Source of the DNA: Alphaproteobacteria bacterium
Lineage (GTDB): Bacteria; Pseudomonadota; Alphaproteobacteria; Micropepsales; Micropepsaceae
Length of the DNA: 64,000 nucleotides
Assembly: GCA_947475445.1 (NCBI GenBank)
Contig: CANJLC010000001.1
Location: 310,001 to 374,000, forward strand
Direction of reading: 5' to 3'
Shown here piece after piece: positions 15,251 through 42,531 of the stretch; position 1 is the stretch's first letter, and each line of letters starts with the position of its first letter. Position numbers and translations under genes: made by a program. The notes below the pieces were generated by a model. The model did no database searches. It had not been told where the DNA came from and worked only from the letters and a program-made list of their open reading frames with translations.

Positions 15251-15502
15251 ATGGCGCAGACCGATAATCCCTTCCTTGACGGCCTGGCAAAGGCCTTTAC
15301 CGACGCCGCGGGCATGGCCCAGGGTGTTCGGGCGGAAATCGACACCTTCATGAAGCAGCGGCTGGAGCGGCTGGTGGCGGACATGGACTTCGTCCCCCGG
15401 GAAGAGTTCGAGGCGGTCAAGGCGATGGCCGCCAAGGCCCGGGCCGAAAACGAGGCCCTGGCCGCCCGGATTGCGGCGCTGGAATCGCCCCCGAAAAGCT
15501 AA
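15251..15502 (+). CDS. ubiK: UbiK/YqiC-type accessory factor (BMFP domain)
   Basis: This 83-aa helical protein matches the BMFP/UbiK family, which aids aerobic ubiquinone synthesis and can interact with membranes. It shows an amphipathic segment (FLDGLAKAFTDAAGMAQGVR) and a C-terminal coiled coil (EEFEAVKAMAAKARAENEALAARIAALE). The ATG at 15251 follows GGAGATCCCC. It is divergent from lgt. Confidence 0.82.
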   Translation: MAQTDNPFLDGLAKAFTDAAGMAQGVRAEIDTFMKQRLERLVADMDFVPREEFEAVKAMAAKARAENEALAARIAALESPPKS

Positions 15503-15615
15503 GCCTCAGAACGGACTCACAAATCGAGTCTGTGGGCGAATCTGGGTGTTAAATTCCCGCCATTCGCAAAGCTGTGGAATCTTTTCCGGGAGACGGGAGA
15601 GGGAGTCTGGGACTC
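15482..15615. promoter_or_regulatory. Cluster of GANTC (CcrM methylation) sites
   Basis: GANTC sites start at 15482, 15514, 15526, 15538, 15577, 15603 and 15611. The last six lie in 102 nt of non-coding DNA before ybjN-proC. Three are spaced exactly 12 nt apart. GACTC/GAGTC pairs also form small inverted repeats (15514-15530 and 15603-15615). Composition alone would give about one site per 300 nt. Such clusters can make promoter activity depend on the cell-cycle methylation state in Alphaproteobacteria. Confidence 0.55.
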
Positions 15616-15682
15616 TTGTGCCGCCACAAAATCTTGTGCCAGTTTGGATCGCAACTGCTTCGTTTTGATTTGCGAGAGTTTG

Positions 15683-16186
15683 ATGCCTTCGATTCAGCTG
15701 GATGAATTCGCATCCGCCCCCCATCCCATCGACATGCTGGAACGCACGGTCGAGGATAATGGCTGGGCGTTCGAACGCGCCGGCCGCGACGAGCTGAACC
15801 TGTCCGTGGCGGGCAAGTGGAGCGATCATCATTTCAGCTTCACCTGGCGCGACGACCTCAAATCGCTGCATCTGTCGTCCACCTTCGACATGCGCATCAC
15901 CGAAGGCACCCATCGCCAGAATGTCGCCGACCTGCTGATGTATGTGAATGCGCGGCTGTGGATCGGGCATTTCGACCTGTGGCACGAGGACGGCACCATT
16001 GTTTTCCGTCATGCCATGATTTTTCCCGGCGCCGAGGCCAGCCCCGCCCAGTGCGAGGCGCTGCTCAATCTCGCGCTGGAAGCCTGCGAGCATTATTATC
16101 CGGCATTCCAGTTCGTGCTGTGGGGCGGCAAGAGCGCAAAGGATGCCGTCGACGCCGCCGTGCTGGAGTGCGCGGGGCGCGCGTGA
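15683..16186 (+). CDS. YbjN domain-containing protein
   Basis: This 167-aa soluble protein fits the YbjN family (PF10722), which folds like type III secretion chaperones. The alphaproteobacterial members have no settled role. Family-like segments are HPIDMLERTVEDNGWAFER, DELNLSVAGKW, LHLSSTFDMRI and MYVNARLWIGHFDLW. The ATG at 15683 was chosen over an upstream GAT-rich extension because the domain begins here. It overlaps the proC GTG by 3 nt, an arrangement that suggests coupling. Confidence 0.85.
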   Translation: MPSIQLDEFASAPHPIDMLERTVEDNGWAFERAGRDELNLSVAGKWSDHHFSFTWRDDLKSLHLSSTFDMRITEGTHRQNVADLLMYVNARLWIGHFDLWHEDGTIVFRHAMIFPGAEASPAQCEALLNLALEACEHYYPAFQFVLWGGKSAKDAVDAAVLECAGRA

Positions 16187-16971
16187 CAATTCTTCTGATC
16201 GGTGCGGGCCGGATGGGCGGCGCCCTTTTGAAGGGCTGGATCGCCCAGGGCCTTGGTCCCGTCACGGTGGTTGAACCCAAGCCCGGCACGGGGCTCAAGT
16301 CCCTCGCCAAAGCCAAAAAGATCAAGCTGCTGGACGCGCTGCCGCCGGGGAAATTCGCTGCCTGCCTGGTGGCGATCAAGCCGCAGGTGCTGAAAAGCGA
16401 TGCGCCGCGCCTGGCCGCCATCGCCAAAAGCGCCGTGATGATTTCGATCGCGGCAGGCACCGATACCAAATTGCTGTTCAAGGCGTGGGGCAACAAGGCG
16501 CGCATCATCCGCGCCATGCCCAACACGCCCGGCGCAATCGGGCAGGGCATCACCGGTCTTTATGCTGCCAAGACTGCCAGGCCCGCCGACAGGAAGCTGG
16601 CGGACAAATTGCTGTCAGCGCTGGGTGAAACCGTCTGGGTGCACAAGGAAGATTTGATCGACAGCGTCACGGCGGTTTCGGGTTCAGGCCCTGCCTATCT
16701 CTTCCTGATGGCCGAAGCGCTCACCGCAGCGGGCATCGCCGAAGGCCTGCCGCCGGCGCTGGCGGAAAAACTGGCGCGGGCCACCGTGTCGGGATCGGGT
16801 GCGCTTTTGGCCGCCGACAAATCACCGGCCTCCGCCTTGCGCGAAGCCGTCACCAGCCCCGGCGGCACCACCGCGGCGGCGCTGGCCGTGCTGATGGCCA
16901 AGGATGGCTTGCCGGCGCTGATGAAACGTGCCGTGCGCGCGGCGCGCCAGCGGGCAGAAGAACTGCGTTAA
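16183..16971 (+). CDS. proC: Pyrroline-5-carboxylate reductase
   Basis: ProC reduces pyrroline-5-carboxylate to proline with NAD(P)H. The 262-aa protein opens TILLIGAGRMGGALLKGW (Rossmann motif). It has KPQVL, RIIRAMPNTPGAIGQGITGLYA and the C-terminal signature TAVSGSGPAYLFLMAEALT...SPGGTTAAAL. The GTG at 16183 overlaps the ybjN stop; the open frame continues far upstream only as a shadow of ybjN. Confidence 0.95.
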   Translation: MTILLIGAGRMGGALLKGWIAQGLGPVTVVEPKPGTGLKSLAKAKKIKLLDALPPGKFAACLVAIKPQVLKSDAPRLAAIAKSAVMISIAAGTDTKLLFKAWGNKARIIRAMPNTPGAIGQGITGLYAAKTARPADRKLADKLLSALGETVWVHKEDLIDSVTAVSGSGPAYLFLMAEALTAAGIAEGLPPALAEKLARATVSGSGALLAADKSPASALREAVTSPGGTTAAALAVLMAKDGLPALMKRAVRAARQRAEELR

Positions 16972-41151: not shown

Positions 41152-42531
41152 ATGCCGCTTTCCAATGCCCAGAACCGGGACATGCAGTCCCTGCTGCATG
41201 GCTTTTCCAATCTCAAGGTGCTGGACAGGGATGGCCCCCTGATCATGGAGCGGGGCAAGGGCGTCTTTGTTTATGACAGCGAGGGCCGCGAATATCTCGA
41301 AGCCATGTCGGGCCTGTGGTCCACGGCGCTGGGCTGGGGCGAGAATGAACTGGCCGAGGTCGCCGCCGAACAGATGCGCAAGCTTTCCTATGGCCATCTC
41401 TTCGCCGGCAAGAGTCATGAGCCGGGCGTGGCGCTGGCGGAAAAGCTGAAAGAGATTTCGCCCTTTCCCGTCGGCAAGGTTTTTTTCGGCTGCTCTGGTT
41501 CGGAAGCCAATGACACCCAGATCAAGTTCGCCTGGTATGCCGCCAATGCCCGCGGCACGCCGAAGAAGAAAAAAGTCATTTCCCGCATGATGGCCTATCA
41601 CGGCGTCACCCTGGCGGCGACCTCGCTCACCGGCATCCCCACCAATCACAAAAGCTTCGACATGCCCCTGGATTTCGCGCGGCATGCCGAATGCCCGCAT
41701 TATTATCGCGGCGCGGAAGCCGGCGAGAGCGAGCTGCAATATTCGGCGCGGCTGGCGGCCAATCTGGATGCGCTGATCCAGAAGGAAGACCCGGACACCA
41801 TCGCCGCCATGATCATCGAGCCCGTGATGGGCGCGGGCGGCGCAATCCTGCCGCCGGACGGCTATTTCGACGAATTGACCAAGGTACTGGCGAAATATGG
41901 CATCCCGTTGATCGATGACGAAGTCATTACCGGTTTTGGCCGCACCGGCGAATGGTTCGGCTGCGGCAAATACGGCTTTGAGCCGGACAGCATGTCCATC
42001 GCCAAGGCGATGTCATCGGCCTATTTGCCCATTTCGGCGGTGATGCTCTCGCCGGAACTGACGGAAATCATTGACAAGGAATCGCGCCGCATCGGCGTGC
42101 TGGGCCATGGCCTGACCTATGGCGGCCATCCCGTGACCGCGGCGGTGGCGCTCAAGACCATCGAGATTTACCAGAAGCGCGATGTGGTGGGGCATGTGCG
42201 CCATGTCGAGCCGGTCTTCCTCAAGCGGCTGGCGCAGCTGGAAAACCATCCCATGGTGGGCGAGGCCAGGGGGGTCGGGCTGGTGGCGGGTATCGAATTG
42301 GTGGCGAACAAGGCCAGCAAGCAATCTTTTGATCCTGCCAGGCTCGTCGCCTTGACCCTGTGCGGTTTTGGCGAAGGAGAGGGGCTCATCATCCGGGCGC
42401 TGCCCTCCGACCGCATCGCGCTGTGCCCGCCGCTGGTCATCAGCGAGGCGGAGATCAATGAATTGTTCGACCGGCTGGAACGGGCCTTGGCCAAGCTGCT
42501 CGACTGGGCGACGCGCGAAAAGCTTATTTAG
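41152..42531 (+). CDS. Class III (omega) aminotransferase
   Basis: This 459-aa PLP enzyme belongs to the class III aminotransferases. It has LEAMSGLWSTALGWGENELAEVA, GCSGSEANDTQIKFAWYAAN, IDDEVITGFGRTGEWFGCGKY and the PLP-lysine segment SMSIAKAMSSAYLPISAV. The WSTALGWGENELAEVA start and overall length fit the beta-alanine/amine:pyruvate or putrescine-pyruvate group. Together with the ODC-like decarboxylase at 51844, a polyamine role is possible but unproved. SD AGAAGG lies 7 nt upstream. Confidence 0.9.
   Translation: MPLSNAQNRDMQSLLHGFSNLKVLDRDGPLIMERGKGVFVYDSEGREYLEAMSGLWSTALGWGENELAEVAAEQMRKLSYGHLFAGKSHEPGVALAEKLKEISPFPVGKVFFGCSGSEANDTQIKFAWYAANARGTPKKKKVISRMMAYHGVTLAATSLTGIPTNHKSFDMPLDFARHAECPHYYRGAEAGESELQYSARLAANLDALIQKEDPDTIAAMIIEPVMGAGGAILPPDGYFDELTKVLAKYGIPLIDDEVITGFGRTGEWFGCGKYGFEPDSMSIAKAMSSAYLPISAVMLSPELTEIIDKESRRIGVLGHGLTYGGHPVTAAVALKTIEIYQKRDVVGHVRHVEPVFLKRLAQLENHPMVGEARGVGLVAGIELVANKASKQSFDPARLVALTLCGFGEGEGLIIRALPSDRIALCPPLVISEAEINELFDRLERALAKLLDWATREKLI

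Follow-up and report, generated by a model that had tools for sequence, protein, structure and literature searches.

In the gap between a ubiK-like gene and ybjN, the window (the whole 64,000-nucleotide stretch of DNA analysed, G000:C1:310001-374000, from a 2.17-Mb MAG in 29 contigs) carries a dense cluster of GANTC sites. With moderate confidence we regard this cluster as a CcrM-methylated, probably GcrA-read control region of ybjN-proC in Rhizomicrobium, through which ybjN would probably be switched by DNA replication and methylation. Methylation-read promoters are already known; ybjN would be a new target, and the number of sites is unusual. A literature search found no paper naming YbjN together with GANTC.

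Gene context of the cluster

The genes are arranged in the order lgt (-), ubiK-like/BMFP (+), ybjN (+), proC (+) and an EnvZ/OmpR-like pair (-), and the 180-bp gap between the ubiK-like gene and ybjN holds the ybjN promoter region (Table 1). The ybjN and proC genes probably belong to the same operon. Relatives in the genus include Rhizomicrobium electricum DSM 21034 (ybjN locus L240), which assigns the host to Rhizomicrobium or something closely related to it (Micropepsaceae). The ccrM gene, which the original prediction had presupposed, is present in the MAG as one gene (C10, 363-aa ORF, PF01555 E 9.6e-71), as are gcrA, also one gene (G000:C4:59062-59490, E 7.9e-48), and nrdR (G000:C1:134252-134683). 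YbjN-domain proteins are widespread, occurring in 225 of the 289 alphaproteobacterial genomes searched. In the family outgroups the element AAAGCTGTG (window 15568-15576; L253-L260) probably encodes the last residues and the stop of ubiK (K-L-stop); in Rhizomicrobium, whose ubiK terminates earlier, it is retained outside the coding region.

Table 1. Features of the ubiK-ybjN-proC region, in window positions
Feature	Position	Strand	Remarks
ubiK-like gene	15251..15502	+	PF04380 BMFP, Pfam E 8.2e-27; GANTC 15482 within its end
GACTC, GAGTC, GAATC	15514..15542		starts 15514/15526/15538, 12-nt spacing
GAATC	15577..15581		directly 3' of the conserved AAAGCTGTG element
GAGTC-TGG-GACTC inverted repeat	15603..15615		GACTC at 15611-15615 is nearly invariant in the genus
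Predicted -35 TTGTGC	15616..15621	+	abuts GACTC; deduced from alignments
CACAAAATCTTGTG, NrdR-box-like palindrome	15625..15638		12/12 to CACWANATNTWGTG; sole perfect match in the genome
Predicted extended -10 TGCCAGTTT	15637..15645	+	putative; class-wide counterpart TGGCANNCT
Weak second NrdR-like box	15656..15669		offset of exactly 31 bp from the first, downstream; scores 6/12 in the window; includes conserved TGCTTCGTTTTG
ybjN	15683..16186	+	PF10722, 167 aa, Pfam E 2e-31
proC	16183..16971	+	TIGR00112 above cut-off; overlaps the ybjN stop codon

Density of GANTC sites

All seven predicted GANTC sites are present (starts 15482, 15514, 15526, 15538, 15577, 15603 and 15611); only 15482 lies inside the end of the ubiK-like ORF, the other six being intergenic as had been claimed, and an eighth site at 15691 lies within ybjN. 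The inverted repeat at 15603-15615, which had been taken to suggest protein binding, was confirmed as well. At one GANTC per 300 nt by base composition, the original estimate agrees with the number obtained by shuffling (231 per 64 kb). The real density is far lower, with 85 sites observed in the window. Such a shortage is expected of a CcrM genome; for bacteria with CcrM, Gonzalez et al. describe GANTC as depleted in coding DNA and enriched in intergenic DNA (PMC3973325), the pattern also seen here. On the 387-kb contig the density was 1.40/kb overall, 3.18/kb in intergenic and 1.24/kb in coding DNA, a 2.6-fold difference between the last two. Among the 195 intergenic regions on this contig that measure 40 bp or more, the ubiK-ybjN gap ranked first, with 6 GANTC and the runner-up having 5. 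The genome count that had been proposed as a check was made on 827 kb, taken in stretches, and the cluster was the densest 134-bp stretch (7 GANTC, next locus 5). The contig with the ccrM promoter lay outside that sample; this promoter holds 8 GANTC per 134 bp and is as dense as the ybjN cluster or denser.

Second in density in the 827 kb was a cluster at G000:C1:86782-86847 (L089:6782-6847; 5 GANTC in 66 bp), which precedes and enters a small ORF reading like FtsB/DivIC. Three GANTC within 134 bp were also seen near the dnaA region (L103:12891, G000:C6:74891), in a stretch with GATTGTACAGTATACGG.

Conservation of the cluster

Conservation in close relatives, the other point on which the prediction was to stand or fall, was found in the form of an approximately 11- to 13-fold enrichment throughout the genus and one near-invariant site. 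The 185 bp upstream of ybjN contained a mean of 4.24 GANTC in 33 genus/family loci (0.33 expected) and 4.31 in 61 named loci (0.38 expected), where the two sets overlap and the expectation is taken from the rest of the same loci. Every genus locus had at least one GANTC within 200 bp upstream of ybjN, and several members retained a single one. Individual positions turn over and are mostly unconserved, except for one GACTC followed by TTG (GACTCTTG), which was present in 31 of the 33 loci and in 51 of the 61 loci of the larger, overlapping set. The 12-nt spacing of the sites at 15514, 15526 and 15538 is exact, as predicted, but it is common only to the nearest relatives (L003, partly L004). The sites of the genus are mostly GASTC (90/140, against 25% GASTC in the genome background). 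The ybjN region may be taken as a case in which the number of methylation sites, and not their mere presence, is maintained while their positions turn over.

The 60-bp block immediately before ybjN was conserved throughout the family. Family outgroups (62-68% YbjN identity) retain the surrounding block without the GACTC before the -35, and in four of seven a GANTC located about 12 nt further downstream stands in its place. In other Alphaproteobacteria a GANTC was found upstream of the predicted -10 in 14 of 46 ybjN promoters, 3.6-fold over the rest of the regions (p 5e-5, related sequences being treated as independent), and in 22 of 53 when a wider interval was searched.

Predicted core promoter and its similarity to the ccrM promoter

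Alignment across the class revealed a recurrent cTTGCG-...-TtTGGCAcnCTAcat.T.GTGGT upstream of ybjN. Its TTGCG and TGGCANNCT may represent a class-wide -35 and extended -10, with TTGTGC and TGCCAGTTT as the putative Rhizomicrobium counterparts and a start site predicted near 15652. Another assignment, with AAAATC as the -10 and, similarly to ctrA P1, GACTC at -28, was given up because the class alignment shows the pair TTG-N16/18-TGNCANNNT to be conserved; both assignments are putative. A scan of the region with the standard sigma-70 consensus gave no match.

The ccrM promoters of the genus (L001:2240-2365 (-), L340-L360) carry 5-8 GANTC each, and GACTCTTGAC, with GACTC directly before the TTGAC -35, was present in 21 of the 21 retrieved. 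The ybjN promoter has GACTCTTGT, arranged like this GACTC-TTGAC, and the GACTCTTG core also occurs in the ccrM promoter. On the contig of the window GACTCTTG occurs only twice, the other copy (window 41409-41416, reverse) being inside a coding ORF. This common GACTC-TTG core is in our judgment the best single evidence that the site is part of a promoter, and it suggests that ybjN and ccrM may be controlled together. Many GANTC sites and a nearby palindrome, CACaaCATCTTGT(A/G), are further features that the ccrM promoter has in common with that of ybjN; it differs in having a true TTGAC -35 and a GAATCA further downstream. The palindrome near the genus ccrM promoters, CACAACATCTTGT(A/G), is located about 60 bp further upstream than that of ybjN. 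At most loci it runs into the end of the gene before it, so that its conservation there is not independent evidence; the exception is L346/L347, where it appears non-coding.

Proposed control by CcrM and GcrA

Control of ybjN by CcrM and GcrA is plausible in view of the presence of ccrM and gcrA, the genus-wide enrichment with one nearly invariant site and the core shared with ccrM; the 12-nt spacing is unconserved, and the extended GcrA motif YGAKTCK fits only one of the six non-coding window sites (CGAGTCT, 15525-15531) and 10 of 140 sites in the genus. GcrA of Brevundimonas shows no preference for YGAKTCK (PMC7987155). In Caulobacter, conserved promoter GANTCs mark genes that are misregulated without CcrM (PMC3973325), and binding and activity of GcrA at such promoters require a methylated site (PMC3667746).

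Beyond the existence and conservation of the sites, we infer methylation, GcrA action and timing from Caulobacter (PMC3667746, PMC4287350, PMC3973325). CcrM would methylate the GANTC sites of the ybjN promoter, and once the replication fork has passed, these would stay hemimethylated until new CcrM is synthesised. Their methylation state would be read by GcrA together with sigma-70 polymerase, chiefly via the GACTC abutting the predicted -35, and the remaining sites may add to or buffer this effect while being freely replaced in evolution. Promoter activity would then follow replication and methylation, as with ctrA, mipZ and ftsZ in Caulobacter. With the locus about 0.49 Mb from the presumed origin in a complete relative, hemimethylation would occur fairly early in S phase.

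The GcrA/CcrM promoters of Caulobacter (ctrA P1, mipZ, podJ, ftsZ) likewise belong to genomes that have both ccrM and gcrA, and their GANTC sites, which relatives also conserve, lie within or next to the core promoter. However, these sites number 1-2 in contrast to 6-7 in the present cluster, and in ctrA P1 and podJ P2 the site lies near -24 to -29, whereas the near-invariant site of ybjN abuts the predicted -35; the target gene is new, and the extended YGAKTCK is mostly absent. The repABC promoters/origins of Agrobacterium also have promoter GANTC above expectation, some sites being functionally needed (PMC11514494), but these belong to a replication module on secondary replicons and not to a chromosomal operon such as ybjN-proC.

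An NrdR-box-like palindrome beneath the cluster

At depth, the best-conserved feature of the region is not GANTC but the NrdR-box-like CACAAAATCTTGTG element, which is older than the cluster above it. It is quite possible, if still tentative, that this conserved functional element serves NrdR as an operator, to which the GANTC cluster would be a lineage-specific addition. NrdR, the nucleotide-sensing repressor of RNR genes, is predicted to bind 15625-15638 and the weaker box over the promoter, which would link ybjN to dNTP supply. This is compatible with control by CcrM and GcrA, and both can hold together. A de novo motif, CCACaAnATgTtGg, was obtained from 42 ybjN upstream regions of other alphaproteobacterial families. 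On 40 loci set aside for validation it was confirmed, scoring a mean of 10.6 against 3.3 bits, with 72% at p<0.05. The palindrome fits the NrdR core CACWANATNTWG, with at least 10/12 matches in 46% of class loci but in 1% after shuffling and 1% with the reversed pattern. Of 44 spacings compared, 31 bp was the peak for box pairs in class ybjN promoters (13 strong pairs, against 0.05 in shuffles), and across 66 family loci an offset of 31 ranked above all others. To be functional, the 16-bp boxes of NrdR must be separated by 14-17 bp (PMC12051234), which the 31-bp peak matches. The genome also contains the nrdR gene.

NrdR-regulated RNR promoters have the same palindrome CACWANATNTWGTG and a pair spacing of 31-32 bp over the promoter. 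On the other hand, the known targets of NrdR are ribonucleotide reductase genes and the operon here is ybjN-proC, the second box in the window and in the genus is weak, and a similar site could serve another palindrome-binding protein. The nrdJ promoters of the genus contain related boxes without a clear 31-bp pair for comparison, and for this reason we keep the assignment to NrdR tentative. An NrdR-type second input at the ybjN promoter is a possibility that would be new if confirmed. Elsewhere on the contig, in the intergenic stretch G000:C1:204826-205225 before a methylmalonyl-CoA mutase-like gene, 4 GANTC occur with an NrdR-like palindrome having one mismatch (CACCACATCTTGTG), and a palindrome resembling it is present there in G022 and G028.

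A ccrM-like promoter together with a box of the dNTP-repressor type predicts a role for YbjN tied to DNA replication. On a wider and rather doubtful view, ybjN would be a core gene of the alphaproteobacterial replication/methylation programme, with GANTC upstream of the -10 and an NrdR-box pair at 31-32 bp class-wide, and with expression gated by CcrM/GcrA methylation and dNTP supply; Rhizomicrobium would have multiplied the methylation input with a ccrM-like core.

Other explanations of the cluster

Another protein, of the MucR type or the one binding the palindrome, could also block CcrM and keep the cluster undermethylated; the cluster would then be an operator that works as a methylation-sensitive switch without GcrA. 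Caulobacter and Sinorhizobium are known to have hypomethylated GANTC promoters that MucR occludes (PMC5172544), and a strong palindrome no more than 10 bp from the key GACTC as well as the small number of sites fitting YGAKTCK would agree with this; there is, however, no known MucR motif to compare, and we consider it unlikely. Similarly improbable is a cluster without function, in which sites accumulate in non-coding DNA because counter-selection acts in genes. The 2.6-fold intergenic excess and the unconserved positions of most sites could be explained in this way, but 6 sites are present where about 0.6 would be expected at intergenic density, the enrichment is kept genus-wide with GACTCTTG near-invariant, and the shift to GASTC speaks against it as well.

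A cis-regulatory RNA was rejected, given no Rfam match above the gathering score, no consensus pairs by RNAalifold on 64 sequences and an ordinary folding energy of the window region (z 0.25), the hairpins in single outgroups (L253, L257) failing to generalise; likewise rejected was a repeated genomic element, as the block has one copy per genome as exact match.

Very improbable is a chromosomal replication origin using GANTC as E. coli oriC uses GATC, although methylation sites are dense here, GC skew reaches a local minimum in the window, the non-coding block is conserved and CTGTGGAAT resembles a DnaA box. GC skew alone is too weak for placing the origin, and the region has no DnaA-box array. 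In the complete relative G028, the skew of the KOPS-like GGGNAGGG locates the terminus at about 1.36 Mb and the origin at about 3.45-3.5 Mb. ParB maps to 3.53 Mb in this genome and ybjN to 4.006 Mb, and a further GANTC cluster precedes a hemH-like ORF at 3.516 Mb; the distance between ybjN and parB in G029 is 475 kb. With the origin 0.49 Mb from ybjN by KOPS skew and ParB in G028, oriC at ybjN was rejected for the genus. The cluster before the hemH-like ORF (L160:8694-8780, G028:C1 near 3.516 Mb) is AT-rich (GAATCTTAGAATCTAAGATTC) and is likely to be the true oriC of the genus because it lies 15 kb from parB at the KOPS skew switch. Its location away from hemE (2.07 Mb) is unusual for an oriC.
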